Of a stretch of 64,000 nucleotides of DNA, positions 28,544 through 64,000 are shown piece after piece. Every line of letters begins with the position of its first letter. The first letter of the stretch is position 1. The position numbers and the translations under genes were made by a program. A model generated the notes under the pieces. It was not told the DNA's origin, ran no database searches, and worked only from the letters and a program-made list of their open reading frames with translations. Source of the stretch: Eubacterium sp. (lineage in GTDB: Bacteria; Bacillota; Clostridia; Lachnospirales; Lachnospiraceae); NCBI GenBank assembly GCA_016292095.1, contig JAEFAB010000053.1:62001-126000 (forward strand), read 5' to 3'.

Positions 28544-30748
28544 ATGGTTACAAAGCAGAACTCACAAAAAAAACAGAAAACATCGGCGCCATGGATTGCC
28601 GGAAAAGTGAACCTGAAACAGGATGTCTTATCCGGCATCATTGTTGCGCTTGTTTCCATTCCGATTTCCATGGGATATGCACAGATCGCCGGACTTCCGG
28701 TGATTTACGGATTGTATGGCTCGCTGTTACCGATTCTGGTTTTTGCTTTCCTGACCACATCTCCACAGTTTGTAGTCGGGGTGGATGCCATGCCGGCAGC
28801 AATGGTTGGAGGTCTCCTGGCTTCGATGGGGATTCAGGCAGAATCAGAGGAAGCACTAAAACTGGTTCCGGTGATTTCTATTTTGGTTGCAATCTGGTTT
28901 GTGATTTTTTATCTGTTTAGAGCGGGAAGGATTGTAAAATATATTTCCACACCGGTTATGGGAGGATTTATTTCCGGTGTAGGAGCTTCGATTATCTTAA
29001 TGCAGGTTCCGAAACTATGGGGTGGCAGCGCCGGTACCGGAGAACTGTTCCGGTTGGCGCGTCATATGGCAAAGGAACGGCATTCATTTCAGTTATTATC
29101 ATTTGGACTTGGAATCGGAACGGTTCTCATCATTCTCTTATGCAGAAAATGGCTTCCGAAGATTCCAATGTTAGTAATTATGATGCTGGTAGGCGTAATA
29201 TTGCAGCTTGTCTTTCACTTAGATGAACATGGCGTTAAACTGCTGCCGGAAGTGGCAGGAGGCTTGCCGCATCTTGTATTGCCGGATTTTAGGGTGCTGA
29301 AATATGAGACTGTGGATATTTTGGTTCAGTCTTTGAGTATTGCAGCGGTAATTATGACACAGACCTTGCTTGCAACAGGAAACTATGCAATGAAATATCA
29401 GGATCAGGTTGATAACAATCAGGAATTGCTTGCTTATGCAGGAATGAATCTCGCCGGAGGACTGGTAGGATGTTGTCCAATCAATGGCTCCGTTTCCCGA
29501 AGCGGTGTGGCAGATTCTTTTAAGTGCAGGTCTCAAGTGATGTCAATAACTGCTTCGGCAACAATGCTTGTCATTTTACTGTTTGGAACACCGTTATTAA
29601 AGTTTTTGCCAATCCCGGTTTTGACAGGAATTGTTATGACAGCACTCATTGGAATTATTGAATTCTCCATGGCAGAACGGTTACGCAAGTCAAGTAAGAA
29701 TGAATGGACCGTCTTTATGATTTCTTTTGGCGGAGTGCTTTTACTGGGCACCGTTTACGGCGTAATGATTGGTTGTATTCTTTCCTTTGCAGTTGTAGCT
29801 GTAAAGGCGGTTGTGCCAACGGCTGTCTTTTTAGGAAGAATTCCGGGAGAAGGTAATTTTTATCCTTTGAACAGAAACACCTCTGCAAGACCAATCAAGA
29901 ATACATTGATTTATCGCTTTAACGGAAATTTGTTCTTTGCTAATATTGACCGGTTTGAAAATGATATTAAGAATGCAATAAAAGAGGATACAAAACAAAT
30001 TGTGGTGGATGCCAGAGGAATTGACAATATCGACATTACCGCAGTGGATCGATTGATGGTCTTCCGAAAGTATTTGTTGGATCAGGGCATTCATTTCTAT
30101 ATAACAGAGCATGAAGGAATCCTGAATGATCGAATCCGTTTTCTGGGAGGCGGAAGTCTCATTGACGAAGGGGTGATGCGTCGTACCATTACCTTGGCAC
30201 TTCGTGATGCCGGACTTCGCAAGCCATATGAATTGGAGGAACCGGAAGAAGACGGAAAAGGAAAGAATTTTATAGAATCGGAAGAACGTCTGGCAGAATT
30301 CCAGTGGGCTTTCGGAGAGGAAGCGGAAAATCGGTTTGAGAAGATGGCATGGGAGACGGCAGAACAGCTGGTGGCTGCCATGGCAGGAGAGGGCGTTCAG
30401 AAAGATATTTTTGGATCCTATCAGTTGAAAACCACTTGGGGACTAATTGGTCGATATGATGAAGATGAGTTCTGGGATTATCTGGAAATTGCATTGGAAC
30501 AGTTGGCAAATCAGGGAAGGATAACAAAAGAAGATGCTTCGAATTTGGAACAGTTAATCGAGGAACGTCGTGAACGGGGTGTTGTAAGATTGCAGGAATT
30601 AAATCCGAAAGCGATGGATATTTTGTTAAAGCACCGAAGGGAAATCCGAGACCAGCTGAAAGCACAGCTTCCCGAAGAATATGCCCGGGTACATAATTTA
30701 AGAAAAGAAAGAAGATTAAAACAGGAAAAAGAAAGACCAACGCAGTAA
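28544..30748 (+). CDS. SulP family anion transporter with STAS domain and C-terminal extension
   Basis: 734 residues. The membrane core (about 25-430; LSGIIVALVSIPISMGYAQI opening) has the SLC26/SulP fold with about 12-14 spans, and a STAS domain follows (about 449-563; VVDARGIDNIDITAVDRL). The final ~170 residues (565-734) form an acidic-then-basic helical extension not typical of the family, including EEAENRFEKMAWETAEQL and a Lys/Arg/Glu-rich end. Such transporters move sulfate, bicarbonate or dicarboxylates; the substrate is unassigned. It is the second gene of an operon with the patatin and faces a second SulP gene. Confidence 0.9.
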   Translation: MVTKQNSQKKQKTSAPWIAGKVNLKQDVLSGIIVALVSIPISMGYAQIAGLPVIYGLYGSLLPILVFAFLTTSPQFVVGVDAMPAAMVGGLLASMGIQAESEEALKLVPVISILVAIWFVIFYLFRAGRIVKYISTPVMGGFISGVGASIILMQVPKLWGGSAGTGELFRLARHMAKERHSFQLLSFGLGIGTVLIILLCRKWLPKIPMLVIMMLVGVILQLVFHLDEHGVKLLPEVAGGLPHLVLPDFRVLKYETVDILVQSLSIAAVIMTQTLLATGNYAMKYQDQVDNNQELLAYAGMNLAGGLVGCCPINGSVSRSGVADSFKCRSQVMSITASATMLVILLFGTPLLKFLPIPVLTGIVMTALIGIIEFSMAERLRKSSKNEWTVFMISFGGVLLLGTVYGVMIGCILSFAVVAVKAVVPTAVFLGRIPGEGNFYPLNRNTSARPIKNTLIYRFNGNLFFANIDRFENDIKNAIKEDTKQIVVDARGIDNIDITAVDRLMVFRKYLLDQGIHFYITEHEGILNDRIRFLGGGSLIDEGVMRRTITLALRDAGLRKPYELEEPEEDGKGKNFIESEERLAEFQWAFGEEAENRFEKMAWETAEQLVAAMAGEGVQKDIFGSYQLKTTWGLIGRYDEDEFWDYLEIALEQLANQGRITKEDASNLEQLIEERRERGVVRLQELNPKAMDILLKHRREIRDQLKAQLPEEYARVHNLRKERRLKQEKERPTQ

Positions 30749-30766: not shown

Positions 30767-32419
30767 TTATTCTTCACAAAGTTTAGTTGCCCATGCAATG
30801 GCATCATCAATATGAGGCTGGAAGTTTTCGCGCCCAACCTTTTCAATAAAGCCTGCCTTTTCCATAGTGTTCATCGGCTGCTCGTTAACATGGGAGAATA
30901 CTAAAGTAATTCCCTGTTTCTGACAACGTTCGAAACAAAGTCTTAAGGAACGCATTGCTGTTGCATCAATTGCAGGCACACCACGCATTCGGATAATAAT
31001 GACCTTGGTGAAATCCTTAAAGTCAATTGCAGCTAACTGTTCTGCATCACCAAAGAACATTGGTCCGGAGATTTCAAAAACACGAACCTGTTTTGGAATC
31101 GGCTTTAAGTCCATTCCGTCCGGATCTTCTTCCGGATCGTAATATTTCCAGCCTTTGACCTGAGATTCTTCACTCATTCGTTTAAGGAATAACAGGACTG
31201 CCAGAACCATTCCGATTTCGATGGCAACAACCAAATCAAAGACAACAGTCAATCCAAAGGTTGCAACCAAAACGAGAATGTCGCTTTTTGGAGCTGCTTT
31301 ACAAAGCAATACAAAAGTTCTCCACTGGCACATATTGTAAGCAACAATAAACAAGATTGCTGCGATTGTTGGCATTGGAATCAATGCAGCATATGGCATT
31401 AAAATCACTAAGACCAGAACTAACACAATGGCGTGAACGATACCGGCAATCGGTGTACGTCCACCGTTTTTGATGTTGGCTGCAGTTCTTGCAATGGCTC
31501 CGGTGGCAGGTATTCCGCCGAACAGTGCGGAACCGATATTACCGCATCCCTGAGCAATCAGTTCCATATTGGAACGATGATGCGAGTTGATCATACTGTC
31601 TGCCACAACACAGGACAGCAGAGATTCGATGGATGCAAGAATTGCAATGGTAAATCCGTCTGAAAGAACGGAACGGATTGTTCCCATGGAAAAATCCGGT
31701 GTATGGAATTTTGGAAGACTGTTGCTGATGGTGTATAAGTCTCCAATGGTATTAACGTTCATATGGGAAAACTTCACAATGAGAATTCCGACAATAACGG
31801 CAATTAATGAGCCCGGGATTTTTTCGTTGATTTTTGGCCACACAATTAAAATAAGAAGACTAATACCACCGATCAGTAAAGCGTAAGGATTTACAGTCTT
31901 AAGATTGTGGGCAAATGCTTCCACTTTTTCTGTTGTTTCAATGGTAACTGTTCCCTTCGGATAAACCAGTCCGAAGAAGTCTTTCAACTGTCCGATTAAA
32001 ATAGTTACCGCAATTCCGGCAGTAAATCCGGTAGTAATGGTAAAGGGAATATATTTGATTAAGGTACCTAATCGGCAAAGCCCCATAACAATCAAAATGA
32101 TACCGGCAATAATCGTTGCCATCATTAATCCGCTCATTCCGTTTTTTGCAACAATCCCCGCCACAATTGTAGCAAAGGCAGCAGTTGGTCCGGCAATCTG
32201 CACACGGCTTCCGCCTAAGAACGAAATGATAAAGCCGGCAATAATAGCAGTGTAAAGACCTTCTTCCGGTCCCACACCGGAAGCCAGAGCCAGGGCAATG
32301 GATAACGGTAAGGCGATAACTGCCACAATAATTCCTGATATAATATCTGTTGTAAGCTGTTTTCCTGAGTAGTTTTTTAAAGTGCTGAACAGCATTGGTT
32401 TAATCTTGTCTTTATGCAT
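30767..32419 (-). CDS. SulP family inorganic anion transporter with STAS domain
   Basis: 550 residues. The membrane core (about 15-420; TDIISGIIVAVIALPLSIAL) carries the SulP signature and the C-terminal STAS domain (about 445-545; VIIRMRGVPAIDATAMRSL) is of normal length. It resembles the BicA/YchM-type subfamily more than the neighbouring copy, so the pair are diverged paralogues rather than a recent duplication. ATG 32419 has TGGAG 6 bases upstream; an ATG four codons earlier has no site. The leader includes a GTCC-TTCG-GGAC hairpin. Confidence 0.92.
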   Translation of the reverse strand: MHKDKIKPMLFSTLKNYSGKQLTTDIISGIIVAVIALPLSIALALASGVGPEEGLYTAIIAGFIISFLGGSRVQIAGPTAAFATIVAGIVAKNGMSGLMMATIIAGIILIVMGLCRLGTLIKYIPFTITTGFTAGIAVTILIGQLKDFFGLVYPKGTVTIETTEKVEAFAHNLKTVNPYALLIGGISLLILIVWPKINEKIPGSLIAVIVGILIVKFSHMNVNTIGDLYTISNSLPKFHTPDFSMGTIRSVLSDGFTIAILASIESLLSCVVADSMINSHHRSNMELIAQGCGNIGSALFGGIPATGAIARTAANIKNGGRTPIAGIVHAIVLVLVLVILMPYAALIPMPTIAAILFIVAYNMCQWRTFVLLCKAAPKSDILVLVATFGLTVVFDLVVAIEIGMVLAVLLFLKRMSEESQVKGWKYYDPEEDPDGMDLKPIPKQVRVFEISGPMFFGDAEQLAAIDFKDFTKVIIIRMRGVPAIDATAMRSLRLCFERCQKQGITLVFSHVNEQPMNTMEKAGFIEKVGRENFQPHIDDAIAWATKLCEE

Positions 32420-32493
32420 GATAAACTCCATTCTTTTGCCTGAAACGGCGAGATTTAAAAAATAAGAAAGTCCCGAAGGACAAGAACTTTTCG

Positions 32494-32528: not shown

Positions 32529-32557
32529 TTGACATTCATTATTTCTTATAATATAAT
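32529..32557 (+). promoter_or_regulatory. Consensus promoter of the aspS T-box leader
   Basis: Perfect TTGACA 32529-32534 and TATAAT 32552-32557 with a 17-base spacer; start near 32564. Confidence 0.85.
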
Positions 32558-32563
32558 CAGAAA

Positions 32564-32856
32564 CGATAGCGACGACGAAGAGAAGTAACCGTACTTATCG
32601 CTGACAGAGAGCAGGCGTTGGTGGAAGTCCTGTAGAATGAATTACGGCGAATAACACTTCAGAGCTGTGAACTGAACGAGAGTTTTCTTCAGTAGGGGAT
32701 CCGTCCTCTGCACGATACGCAGAAGGTCTTTCAAAATGCGAAGACCGTGAGGGGCTGCATTGGCAGTAAATCAGGTGGTACCGCGGACTTTTATGAAATT
32801 GATATAAATAAAGAGTTCGTCCTGAAAGAGTGAATCTTTTAGGATGAACTCTTTTT
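32564..32856 (+). promoter_or_regulatory. T-box riboswitch controlling aspS, candidate AAC (Asn) specifier
   Basis: A complete T-box leader. Stem I: GAAG 32577-32580 pairs with CTTC 32657-32660, and CCGTA 32589-32593 with TACGG 32643-32647. The internal loop between them has the 5' strand AGAAGTAA (AGTA motif) and the 3' strand CGAATAACA (32648-32656), in which AAC followed by A sits at the specifier position; no GAC is present there. The conserved T-box AGGTGGTACCGCG is at 32773-32785, with TGGT for the tRNA acceptor end. The terminator hairpin is 32810-32855 with a T5 run. An uncharged tRNA matching the specifier would stabilise the antiterminator and switch aspS on. Confidence 0.92.
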
Positions 32857-32888
32857 ACATTTATAAAATTAGTAAAGGAGAGAAAACA

Positions 32889-34646
32889 ATGGACGTTAAC
32901 ACAAACAACATTTATCGTGATGTAACAATGGATCAGCTTTCAGAAGCTAACGTTGGTCAGACTGTGAAGATTTCCGGTTGGATTGAAAACATCCGCGACC
33001 ACGGTGGAGTTTCATTTATTGACTTAAGAGATATGTACGGCGTAATGCAGGTCGTTATGCGAGACACTACTTTATTGGAAGGATTAAATAAGGAAGATTG
33101 TATTTCTGTGGAAGGACCAATTGAACACAGAGACGAAGAAACATACAATCCAAAGATTCCTACAGGAACAATTGAATTAGAAGCAAAATCTGTAAAGATT
33201 TTAGGAAAAGTATACAGACAGCTTCCGTTTGAAATCATGACTTCCAAGGAAACAAGAGAAGATGTTCGATTAAAATATCGTTATTTAGATCTTAGAAATA
33301 CAAAGGTTCGTGATAATATGATTTTCCGTTCCAACGTAATTTCTTATCTTCGTCAGAAGATGACAGACTTGGGATTCTTAGAAATCCAGACACCAATTCT
33401 TTGTGCTTCTTCTCCGGAAGGTGCCAGAGACTACATTGTACCAAGCAGAAAAATCAAAGGAAAATTCTATGCATTGCCACAGGCACCACAGCAGTATAAG
33501 CAGTTACTGATGGTTTCCGGCTTTGACAAGTATTTCCAGATTGCTCCTTGTTTCAGAGACGAAGATGCAAGAGCAGATCGTTCACCGGGAGAATTTTATC
33601 AGTTAGACTTTGAAATGAGCTTTGCTACACAGGAAGATGTTTTCCGTGTAGGAGAAGAAGTTTTAGCAGATACATTTAACAAGTTTGCTCCGGAAGGCTA
33701 TGAAGTAACACAGGCACCATTCCCTGTAATCAGCTTTAAGGAAGCAATGTTAAAATACGGTACAGATAAGCCGGACCTTAGAAACCCATTGGAAATTATC
33801 GATGTAACTGATTTCTTCCAGAGATGTACATTCAAGCCTTTCCACGGAAAGACAGTTCGTGCCATCGTGGTTAATCAGAAGTTATCTAAGGGTCAGCATG
33901 AAAAATTATTGAAGTTTGCACAGAGCATCGGCATGGGCGGACTTGGATATTTGGAAGTGTTAGAAGACGGTTCTTACAAGGGACCTATCGATAAATTCAT
34001 TCCGGATGATATGAAGGATGAAATCAGAAGTCAGGCAAACTTAAAGCCAATTGACACTATTTTCTTTATTGCGGACAATGAAAAGAATGCATCTCTTTAT
34101 GCAGGACAGATTCGTACCGCTCTTGGCGAAAGACTTGATTTAATTCAGAAGAACCAGTATAAGTTCTGTTATATCAACGACTTCCCAATGTACGAATATG
34201 ATAATGAAACAAAGCAGATGATCTTTACACACAATCCGTTCTCAATGCCACAGGGGGGATTGGAAGCATTGGAAACAAAGAACCCGGAAGAAATTTTAGC
34301 ATACCAGTACGATATCGTATGTAACGGTGTTGAATTATCTTCAGGTGCCGTAAGAAACCATGATATGGAAATTATGGTGAAGGCATTTGAAATCGCAGGA
34401 TACACAGAAGAAGACTTGAAAGAAAAATTTGGCGCACTCTATAATGCGTTCCAGTTTGGTGCACCACCTCACGCAGGTATGGCACCGGGAGTAGACCGAA
34501 TGATTATGCTTCTTCGCGATGAAGAAAACATTCGTGAAGTAATTCCATTCCCAATGAATGGTAATGCACAGGACTTAATGTGTGGTGCTCCGGGAGAAGT
34601 TACAGAACAGCAGCTCCGCGAAGTACACATTAAAGTAAGACAGTAA
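32889..34646 (+). CDS. aspS: Aspartyl-tRNA synthetase, bacterial type, probably non-discriminating
   Basis: 585 residues: an N-terminal OB-fold anticodon domain (1-110), class II catalytic core with motif 2 FRDEDARADRSPGEFYQLD and motif 3 GVDRMIMLL, and the bacterial GAD insertion (about 285-415). The anticodon domain reads IRDHGGVSFIDLRD; His38 corresponds to the position that is Leu in discriminating bacterial AspRS (RDLG in E. coli) and His in non-discriminating ones. That would make it charge both tRNA-Asp and tRNA-Asn, in line with gatCAB in this window and the AAC-type T-box leader. AAAGGAG lies upstream of ATG 32889; an earlier in-frame ATG is inside the T-box terminator. Confidence 0.95.
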   Translation: MDVNTNNIYRDVTMDQLSEANVGQTVKISGWIENIRDHGGVSFIDLRDMYGVMQVVMRDTTLLEGLNKEDCISVEGPIEHRDEETYNPKIPTGTIELEAKSVKILGKVYRQLPFEIMTSKETREDVRLKYRYLDLRNTKVRDNMIFRSNVISYLRQKMTDLGFLEIQTPILCASSPEGARDYIVPSRKIKGKFYALPQAPQQYKQLLMVSGFDKYFQIAPCFRDEDARADRSPGEFYQLDFEMSFATQEDVFRVGEEVLADTFNKFAPEGYEVTQAPFPVISFKEAMLKYGTDKPDLRNPLEIIDVTDFFQRCTFKPFHGKTVRAIVVNQKLSKGQHEKLLKFAQSIGMGGLGYLEVLEDGSYKGPIDKFIPDDMKDEIRSQANLKPIDTIFFIADNEKNASLYAGQIRTALGERLDLIQKNQYKFCYINDFPMYEYDNETKQMIFTHNPFSMPQGGLEALETKNPEEILAYQYDIVCNGVELSSGAVRNHDMEIMVKAFEIAGYTEEDLKEKFGALYNAFQFGAPPHAGMAPGVDRMIMLLRDEENIREVIPFPMNGNAQDLMCGAPGEVTEQQLREVHIKVRQ

Positions 34647-61624: not shown

Positions 61625-61701
61625 ATTGATTAAGTGTGTTAATTATATATGTTTCTTATATATAAGGTAAAAATCCATCACAGAAAATGGAGGAGGTTAT
61701 A

Positions 61702-61995
61702 ATGGCTAACATTATTTCGGATGAAACAATCGAATACGTTGGAATTCTGGCAAAACTGGAATTATCTGACGAAGAAAAAGAAAAAGCAAAAAAAGATATG
61801 GGCGAGATGCTTGACTATATTGATAAGTTAAACGAGTTGGACACCGGTGCGGTGGAACCAATGAGTCATGTATTCCCGGTTCATAATGTATTTCGCGAAG
61901 ATGTTGTTACCAATGGAGATGACAGGGAAAACATCCTTAAGAATGCACCGGAACACAATGAAGAATCCTTCATTGTTCCAAAGACATTTGATTAA
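61702..61995 (+). CDS. gatC: Asp/Glu-tRNA amidotransferase subunit C
   Basis: 97 residues, the small belt subunit that stabilises GatA and GatB. The N-terminal helical part ([20 protein letters not shown]) and the extended stretch [24 protein letters not shown] are typical. ATG 61702 follows GGAGGAGG closely; an upstream ATG five codons earlier has no site. First gene of the gatCAB operon, transcribed from a TTGACT/TAAGAT promoter. The enzyme converts Glu-tRNA-Gln and/or Asp-tRNA-Asn to the amidated forms. Confidence 0.95.
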
Positions 61996-62038: not shown

Positions 62039-63508
62039 ATGAATTTGATGAGTTTAACAGCAGTGGAACTGGGAAAGAAAATCAAATCCGGTGAAGTAAA
62101 AGTAGTTGATGCCGTAAATGATGCTTTCGCACAGATTGAAGCTGTGGAAAAAGATATGAACAGTTATGTAACTGTATATGAAAAAGAAAGAGTGCTGAAA
62201 AATGCAGAAGAAATTCAGCAGAAGATTGATCAGGGTGAATTGACCGGACCGTTAGCCGGAGTTCCTGTGGCAATCAAAGATAATATGTGTACCAAAGGAA
62301 ATCTGACAACATGTAGTTCTAAGATTTTAGGAAACTTTTATCCGACTTATTCTGCAGAGGCAGTTGTAAATCTGGAAAAAGCCGGTGCTGTAATTATCGG
62401 AAAGACAAATATGGACGAATTTGCCATGGGAAGTACTACAGAAACTTCTCATTTCGGACCAACAAAGAACCCATGGAATCTTGAACATGTTCCGGGCGGA
62501 TCTTCCGGAGGAAGCTGTGCGGCAGTTGCAGCGGAAGAATGTTCTTATGCATTAGGTTCTGATACCGGTGGGTCAATCAGACAGCCTAGTTCATTCTGTG
62601 GTGTTACAGGAATTAAGCCGACTTACGGAACAGTGTCCCGTTACGGACTGATTGCTTATGGTTCTTCTTTAGACCAGATCGGACCGGTAGCAAAGGACGT
62701 TACAGACTGTGCTACAATCCTTGAAGCAATTGCAAGCTATGATGAAAAAGACTCTACTTCCGTAAAAAGAGAGGATTACAATTTTACATCAGCTTTAGTG
62801 GATGATGTAAAAGGATTGAAAATCGGTATTCCAAAAGGATACTTTGGAGACGGTTTAAATAAAGAAGTAAAAGATGCGGTTTTAAACGCAGTAAAAGTTT
62901 TAGAAGAAAAAGGTGCTATTGTAGAAGAGTTTGATTTGAGTTTGGTGGAATATGCCATTCCGGCTTATTACGTTATTGCAGATGCGGAAGCAAGCTCCAA
63001 CCTTGCACGTTTTGATGGTGTGAAGTACGGATACCGTACAGAGGATTATCGCGGACTTCACAATATGTATAAGAAATCCCGTTCTGAAGGATTTGGGGAA
63101 GAAGTAAAGCGTCGAATCATGCTTGGTTCTTTCGTTCTCAGTTCAGGATACTATGATGCTTACTATTTGAAAGCACTTCGTACAAAGGCATTAATTAAGA
63201 AAGCTTTTGATGAAGCGTTTGCTAAGTATGATGTGATTATCGGACCTGCTGCTCCGACAACAGCACCAAAGCTTGGTTCCAGTCTGGCAGATCCAATCAA
63301 GATGTACTTAGGCGACATTTATACCATTTCAGTAAACTTAGCAGGTCTTCCGGGAATTTCCGTTCCATGTGGTATGGACTCTGAAGGACTTCCAATCGGA
63401 ATGCAGATTATTGGAGACTGCTTTAAAGAAAACAATATTATCAGAGCAGCGTATGCTTATGAGCAGACAAGAGAATATGCTCACAGCACAGCAGCACAGA
63501 GAGATTAG
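62039..63508 (+). CDS. gatA: Asp/Glu-tRNA amidotransferase subunit A
   Basis: 489 residues, the glutaminase subunit of the amidase-signature family. The catalytic Ser-cis-Ser-Lys triad can be placed: Lys in PVAIKDNMCTKG, and the two Ser in PGGSSGGSCAAVA and SDTGGSIRQPSS. It releases ammonia from glutamine or asparagine and channels it to GatB. The start has AAGGAG at a good distance. 43 bases after gatC and 12 bases before gatB. Confidence 0.97.
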   Translation: MNLMSLTAVELGKKIKSGEVKVVDAVNDAFAQIEAVEKDMNSYVTVYEKERVLKNAEEIQQKIDQGELTGPLAGVPVAIKDNMCTKGNLTTCSSKILGNFYPTYSAEAVVNLEKAGAVIIGKTNMDEFAMGSTTETSHFGPTKNPWNLEHVPGGSSGGSCAAVAAEECSYALGSDTGGSIRQPSSFCGVTGIKPTYGTVSRYGLIAYGSSLDQIGPVAKDVTDCATILEAIASYDEKDSTSVKREDYNFTSALVDDVKGLKIGIPKGYFGDGLNKEVKDAVLNAVKVLEEKGAIVEEFDLSLVEYAIPAYYVIADAEASSNLARFDGVKYGYRTEDYRGLHNMYKKSRSEGFGEEVKRRIMLGSFVLSSGYYDAYYLKALRTKALIKKAFDEAFAKYDVIIGPAAPTTAPKLGSSLADPIKMYLGDIYTISVNLAGLPGISVPCGMDSEGLPIGMQIIGDCFKENNIIRAAYAYEQTREYAHSTAAQRD

Positions 63509-63520
63509 GAGGGAACAGCA

Positions 63521-64000
63521 ATGAAACAGTACGAAACAGTCATTGGACTTGAAGTTCACGTAGAACTTGCGACAAAAACAAAGATTTTCTGTTCCTGTTC
63601 TACAGAGTTTGGTGGAGCGCCAAACACACATACATGCCCGGTTTGTACAGGTATGCCGGGATCACTTCCTGTATTGAATAAGCAGGTTGTAGAATATGCC
63701 ATGGCAGTAGGTATGGCAACAAACTGTAACATTACACAGAATTGTAAGTTTGACAGAAAGAATTATTTCTATCCGGATAATCCGCAGAACTATCAGATTT
63801 CTCAGTTGTATAAACCAATCTGTACCGATGGTTATGTGGAAATCAAAGATGCAGACGGAAATCCGAAGAAAGTCAGAATTCATGAAATTCATATGGAAGA
63901 AGATGCGGGAAAACTGGTACATGATGATTGGAATGACTGCTCACTGGTAGATTTAAACCGTTCCGGTGTACCATTGATTGAAATTGTATCCGAACCGGAT
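63521..64000 (+). CDS. gatB: Asp/Glu-tRNA amidotransferase subunit B (N-terminal part)
   Basis: 160 codons are visible before the window ends. GatB activates the carboxylate of the misacylated tRNA and adds ammonia. The opening [20 protein letters not shown], the zinc-binding cysteines (CSC and CPVC), the [15 protein letters not shown] block and HMEEDAGKL with acidic metal ligands are conserved. AGGAGG at 63508-63513 precedes the ATG. Third gene of the operon. Confidence 0.96.

Follow-up and report, generated by a model that had tools for sequence, protein, structure and literature searches.

An asparagine-codon T-box leader before a stand-alone second aspartyl-tRNA synthetase gene, predicted to be non-discriminating, in Lachnospiraceae

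In C. acetobutylicum a tRNA-Asn T-box is said to precede an operon of AspRS plus GatCAB, a system attributed to Saad 2012 JBC and Saad 2013 PNAS. The initial annotation of the locus described here had mentioned a clostridial tRNA-Asn T-box before an amidation operon, and the reported AspRS-GatCAB case of C. acetobutylicum is such a system. For this T-box a dual reading of overlapping Glu and Asn codons was reported in PMC4052509. Moreover, a non-discriminating AspRS2 beside AspRS1 and AsnRS was described for Thermus and Deinococcus (PMC4206432, PMC6523644), and the former source calls a second AspRS rare in bacteria. In T-boxes before tRNA ligase genes the specifier always matched the ligase, according to PMC2494555.

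The locus analyzed in our study lies in a stretch of 64,000 nucleotides (the window) from a genome of 2.30 Mb, whose assembly is about 91% complete. Positions 32563-32854 are a complete transcriptional T-box leader. The T-box that had been proposed before aspS was recovered by cmscan as a match to RF00230 at 32563-32827 (+), from stem I through the antiterminator, over the full model (1-219 of 219) with 89.6 bits and an E-value of 3.3e-20; the Rfam gathering score of this family is 93, so that the leader lies 3.4 bits under it and is unlisted at the gathering threshold. Besides the full-model covariance match, we found a stem I with an AGUA box and a specifier loop as well as an antiterminator and a mutually exclusive terminator. 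The T-box sequence GGTGGTACCGCG with the antiterminator bulge UGGU (32774-32785, +) is the sole exact pattern match in the window. Folding revealed an intrinsic terminator at 32810-32854 (+), a 20-bp stem followed by T's, and GTTCGTCCT is common to terminator and antiterminator; the region 32806-32858 folds with -28.6 kcal/mol (z -10.1). Upstream, a sigma-70-type promoter (TTGACA-17-TATAAT; 32529-32557, +) is predicted from a consensus match at 12 of 12 positions.

Stem I was not seen in the single-sequence MFE fold, and stem I alone gave a z of 0.07. Therefore, we used covariation for this domain and aligned 34 stand-alone stem I sequences, namely the window's and those of 33 relatives (all of the 36 stand-alone named loci except three, which lack a T-box motif). 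The 5' strand of the specifier loop region (32577-32593, +) consists of GAAG (lower helix, 32577-32580), the AGTA box (32584-32587) and CCGTA (upper helix, 32589-32593). The 3' strand (32643-32660, +) reads TACGG, C, GAA, U, AAC, A, CTTC, in which TACGG (32643-32647) pairs with CCGTA and CTTC (32657-32660) with GAAG, just as the initial annotation had placed them. In the resulting frame of 14 pairs, 88.4% of the cells were paired compared to 76.1% in shuffled and at most 43.4% in slid alignments, and 77 cells carried a double change compared to 24.3 after shuffling, a value reached by none of 500 shuffles. The helices framing the specifier covary, with two weaker measures giving a less distinct result: the number of pairs showing a double change (8 vs 6.8 shuffled; 110 of 500 shuffles as high) and further pair types (27 vs 24.0; 16 of 500).

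The register of the specifier was calibrated on the other T-boxes of the genome. The listing contained ten RF00230 matches, seven of them with an E-value below 1e-16; the three others, with E above 1, were left out. In the covariance-model alignments of the seven strong T-boxes the specifier triplet follows a conserved GAA with a spacer of 0-1 base. Six of these T-boxes carry UUC, UGG, CUC, GUA, ACU and AUC before pheS, trpE, leuA, valS, thrS and ileS, respectively, and the codon fits the gene behind it in 6/6 cases. The same register in the aspS2 leader gives GAA-U-AAC-A with the Asn codon AAC at 32653-32655 (+), and AAC is found in 34/34 of the aligned stem I sequences. A GAC reading was rejected because GAC is absent and AAC is invariant in the aligned relatives. 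Accordingly, the covariance-model alignment, which the initial annotation had suggested as a check, agrees with its reading of AAC instead of GAC, and the adjoining register is indeed a stop, since frame -1 reads UAA (frame +1 reads ACA).

The leader is followed by aspS2 (IRDHGGVSFIDLRD; 32889-34646, +), an intact frame of 585 aa that matches the NCBIfam aspartate--tRNA ligase NF001750 with 755 bits and contains the OB, class II core and GAD domains of bacterial AspRSs (Pfam PF01336, PF00152, PF02938). Its closest named relative, 94% identical, stems from a MAG of an uncultured Lachnospiraceae bacterium (L209). The gene had been annotated simply as that of an AspRS, which is right except that it is a second one: another aspS, encoding AspRS1, lies behind hisS in this genome, and the two proteins are 43% identical. 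In a tree of 87 AspRSs from a sample of the bacterial family, three types formed one group each: type A with 46 rows, to which the window's enzyme belongs, type B with 20, and the hisS-type C with 21 (support 96, 99 and 100, respectively). As neighbours, aspS2 has a SulP-type transporter gene in divergent orientation and an ORF that matched no family; therefore, aspS2 is not part of an amidation operon, in agreement with its initial description as stand-alone. Directly upstream of the leader, two convergent SulP-type transporter genes, at 28544-30748 (+) and 30767-32431 (-), adjoin each other. The window also contains the amidotransferase genes, at a distance of 27 kb downstream from aspS2 (which ends at 34646): gatC (61687-61995, +; TIGR00135, 90.6 bits), gatA (62039-63508, +; TIGR00132, 624.9 bits), both over the cut-off, and gatB (63521-64000, +), which runs past the window end (TIGR00133 at G000:C72:125521-126948, 581 bits). 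A motif pattern search and an Rfam scan detected no T-box before this gatCAB, and around gatCAB, hisS-aspS or asnS the genome gave no Rfam match.

AspRS2 is predicted to be non-discriminating, as it belongs to a separate clade and carries a His marker. The motif RDHGG containing this His was present in 50/50 window-type AspRSs among the matches listed in a sample of 150 genomes of the family and in 0/41 fetched B- and C-type enzymes; the other AspRS copy of the window's genome has Leu at this place. The T-box motif was found upstream of 41/50 window-type AspRSs among the matches listed and of 0/41 others, where the about 750 bases covered upstream of B- and C-type aspS genes would not reach a leader located before hisS, the window's genome (L047) being the exception. 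RDHGG is present in four PDB chains that carry the name tRNA(Asp/Asn) ligase (4wj3, 5gro, 4rmf, 5w25), and both 6hhv, named tRNA(Asp) ligase, and 1c0a have Leu; 6wom (Lys) and 4o2d (RDHGG), both named only aspartate--tRNA ligase, were not counted. The chain 1c0a is that of the E. coli AspRS. The His of RDHGG in the anticodon domain corresponds to P. aeruginosa H31, which is reported to affect tRNA-Asn recognition. Three distant relatives with AAC leaders (L313, L318, L320) have Phe or Leu instead, and the His is an imperfect marker of non-discriminating AspRSs.

The gene content of the 150 family genomes points in the same direction. Among the matches listed, AspRS2 occurred in 26/33 asnS-lacking but only in 24/117 asnS-bearing genomes (p 1e-9, phylogeny ignored), and gatB in 49/50 AspRS2 carriers compared to 57/100 others (p 1e-8, phylogeny ignored). 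For these counts the AspRS, asnS and gatB searches were taken to cover the same 150 genomes, as handles and sizes agree; genomes without a listing were assigned by elimination as asnS-lacking (8) or gatB-lacking (24). Two genomes with asnS in two pieces (G103, G119) were scored as asnS-bearing and five with sub-cut-off matches only as lacking. Seven asnS-lacking genomes had no window type among the matches listed, and four of them had a sub-cut-off asnS match like that of archaeal-type enzymes. In AsnRS-lacking genomes AspRS2 together with GatCAB is the likely source of Asn-tRNA(Asn). The window type was present in at least 50/150 genomes, with a 55% partial match (G097) not classed, compared to the "rare" of PMC4206432. 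In the window's genome, bacterial AspRS domains, the RDHGG His and GatCAB occur together, as expected for a non-discriminating AspRS.

We propose that the leader is a T-box for uncharged tRNA-Asn controlling a predicted non-discriminating AspRS2, which with GatCAB would form a second, starvation-induced route to Asn-tRNA(Asn) beside AsnRS, and we give this reading a probability of roughly 0.8. The AAC codon stands before an AspRS gene most likely because AspRS2 loads Asp onto tRNA-Asn, the first step of Asn synthesis on the tRNA. When Asn-tRNA(Asn) is low, the GUU anticodon of uncharged tRNA-Asn would pair with AAC, and the 3' end of this tRNA with the UGGU bulge; binding would allow the antiterminator to form and aspS2 to be transcribed. 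AspRS2 would then put Asp on tRNA-Asn and GatCAB would amidate Asp-tRNA(Asn) to Asn-tRNA(Asn), while the hisS-linked AspRS1 would charge tRNA-Asp.

The initial annotation had explained the leader by the formation of Asn-tRNA through Asp-tRNA-Asn and GatCAB. This holds insofar as gatC, gatA and gatB are all present in the genome; the route is not obligatory, as the genome also has an AsnRS gene (G000:C27, 638 bits vs a cut-off of 342.6) and three asnB-type matches. With the AsnRS present, we dropped the idea that Asn-tRNA depends on AspRS2. Moreover, GlnRS was not found in this assembly of about 91% completeness; therefore, GatCAB would be needed for Gln-tRNA and by itself is uninformative on Asn. 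Since AsnRS and asnB-type genes are present, the AspRS2 route may be redundant or silent. Going further, the T-box and aspS2 could be a relic of an AsnRS-less ancestor, with AsnRS and AsnB supplying Asn-tRNA(Asn), to which the three asnB-type genes and an unlinked gatCAB that would be required for Gln anyway would be well suited. However, the 585-aa frame, the promoter, the terminator, the T-box and the stem I frame are all intact, and among the matches listed in the 150-genome sample AspRS2 has been kept in 23 other AsnRS-bearing genomes, which makes such a vestigial unit unlikely. The same coexistence, seen in the window's genome and these 23 others, means for the proposed second route that two ways to Asn-tRNA(Asn) could run in one cell.

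The Asn leader is not an isolated case, as AAC is the rule in the AspRS2 clade: the T-box motif lies upstream of 99/117 distinct AspRS2 proteins of known context, and AAC stands at the specifier place in 96/99, a count that leans to AAC since the specifier search in these leader surveys was keyed on AAC-like triplets. The remaining 18/117 genes have no T-box motif upstream. The 117 proteins comprise 54 stand-alone ones and 63 adjoining gat genes, after identical proteins as well as rows that were short, broken or of unknown context had been removed from starting sets of 50 and 80 loci, in which duplicates across sets were at first kept. Nine loci went through a table made by hand, by which six were assigned (L227, L263, L265, L226, L230, L125) and three stayed without a call (L249, L275, L127). 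Outside the family, 18/19 leaders of 76-82% identical AspRS2 proteins carry the motif, all 18 with AAC, 17 of them as UAAC; this set comes from 40 fetched class-level matches among those listed, taken regardless of gat linkage. Among 21 more distant AspRS2 leaders the motif occurred in 11, with AAC seen by eye and without structural placement. A search of the window's genome for additional Asn T-boxes with a short pattern yielded 12 matches compared to 4 in the reversed control, and its results were set aside.

Similar leaders were found before a different enzyme. Other genomes of the family carry an archaeal-type enzyme beside gatCAB, and 3/3 tested were over the cut-offs of NF003483 and TIGR00458 (aspartate--tRNA(Asn) ligase). 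Of the sub-cut-off asnS matches that were fetched (L189-L208), 13/20 have the T-box motif upstream, all 13 within about 5 kb of gatB, and AAC is present in 12/13 of these leaders (11 GAAC, 1 CAAC; L189 without a call). Therefore, two AspRSs that both serve the amidation pathway but are only distantly related are preceded by this type of Asn leader. The T-box upstream of the archaeal-type AspRS(Asn) genes beside gatCAB has an alternative stem I.

The base before the Asn codon differs with the context of the gene. In 48 stand-alone leaders it is U in 41, G in 5, A in 1 and C in 1, whereas in 51 operon leaders it is G in 43, U in 4 and C in 1, with 3 lacking a call. GAAC holds the overlapping codons GAA (Glu) and AAC (Asn); UAAC cannot read Glu. 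In two genomes (G123 and G043) UAAC stands before the stand-alone aspS2 and GAAC before a gatCAB operon without aspS2 (L173:2253 and, on the minus strand, L181 1924, respectively). These came from 17 gat regions fetched from genomes with an unlinked aspS2, and in 15 of these gatCAB is not preceded by a T-box motif; a third match to the motif (L186) falls within gatA. One may tentatively suppose, although we consider it rather doubtful, that the target of the T-box sets the preceding base, so that GAAC before gatCAB would sense tRNA-Glu and tRNA-Asn, because GatCAB also serves Gln-tRNA made from Glu, and UAAC before aspS2 alone, with a stop triplet in place of the Glu codon, would sense tRNA-Asn only. 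The claim loses strength because leader architecture can hardly be separated from context, the stem I of operon leaders differing from that of stand-alone leaders, with one operon leader of the standard type (L122) keeping U. In a quick FastTree of AspRS2, 6 changes are required for context and 12 for the base; 3 and 7 of these, respectively, are enforced by well-supported branches. Leaders of aspS2-gatCAB operons, e.g. L025, L032 and L039, seemingly have no AGUA box, and a motif similar to CACCGACTGAGAGC is common to them; in structure, they may form a T-box type of their own.

With respect to the window's leader, a second tRNA might also be read in an overlapping frame, as reported for C. 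acetobutylicum in PMC4052509 and as the GAAC of 43/51 T-box-bearing operon rows of the AspRS2 clade would permit. However, the U before AAC turns frame -1 into UAA, which no normal tRNA reads, and ACA in frame +1 would call for Thr, for which a tRNA-Thr UGU gene exists but which is unfit for aspS2. Reading of two codons by this leader is accordingly quite improbable. Sensing of tRNA-Asp by a leader whose first specifier base forms a weakened A-C pair, with AspRS2 as an ordinary stress copy, would suit the name aspartate--tRNA ligase and the G73 shared by tRNA-Asn and tRNA-Asp, but is very improbable given the exact codon-gene fit in 6/6 other T-boxes of the genome, the invariant AAC in 34/34 aligned relatives, and the association of AspRS2 with AsnRS absence and its His marker.

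Neither tRNA-Asn nor tRNA-Asp was found in the window's assembly, in which 30 loci were scanned, given for 32 tRNA places. In 12/13 genomes searched tRNA-Asn has A72 and G73, and U1 where the 5' end is visible (the thirteenth, the window's, gave no match); U1-A72 of tRNA-Asn was taken as a sign of amidation in PMC4206432. As tRNA-Asp in 7 genomes also has G73, with which the UGGU bulge only wobble-pairs, the discriminator base was useless as evidence for Asn over Asp and was discarded.

The proposed control by tRNA-Asn would have several consequences. A specifier at odds with the annotated amino acid can serve as a genomic reporter of misacylating enzymes: in the AspRS2 clade, an AAC specifier upstream of aspS is indicative of a non-discriminating AspRS, for which the NCBIfam name is just aspartate--tRNA ligase. 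Our results suggest that the indirect synthesis of Asn-tRNA is widespread in this bacterial family and under regulation of its own, even beside AsnRS. In addition, the UAAC/GAAC split offers natural pairs for one-base control of single- versus dual-tRNA sensing.

A stand-alone aspS under an Asn T-box was not described in the literature searched, which lay outside most subscription papers and the TBDB tables. The Asn T-box before an AspRS is known from C. acetobutylicum; new are the stand-alone form, its spread and the UAAC/GAAC pattern. With standard T-boxes, e.g. the six others of the genome, the leader shares its anatomy and specifier register; however, those before ligase genes always matched the ligase according to PMC2494555, whereas here AAC precedes an AspRS. 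As in Thermus and Deinococcus, two AspRSs, GatCAB and AsnRS occur in one genome, but the AspRS2 of those bacteria is reported as archaeal-type, and the one described here is of the bacterial type, with a GAD domain and 585 aa, and lies behind a T-box. Closest is C. acetobutylicum, where an Asn-codon T-box is likewise reported to precede an additional AspRS that serves the amidation pathway. There, a single aspS-gatCAB operon and overlapping Asn/Glu codons, which we take as GAAC, are reported; here aspS2 stands alone, gatCAB lies 27 kb off without a detected T-box, UAAC reads Asn only, and AsnRS is also present.
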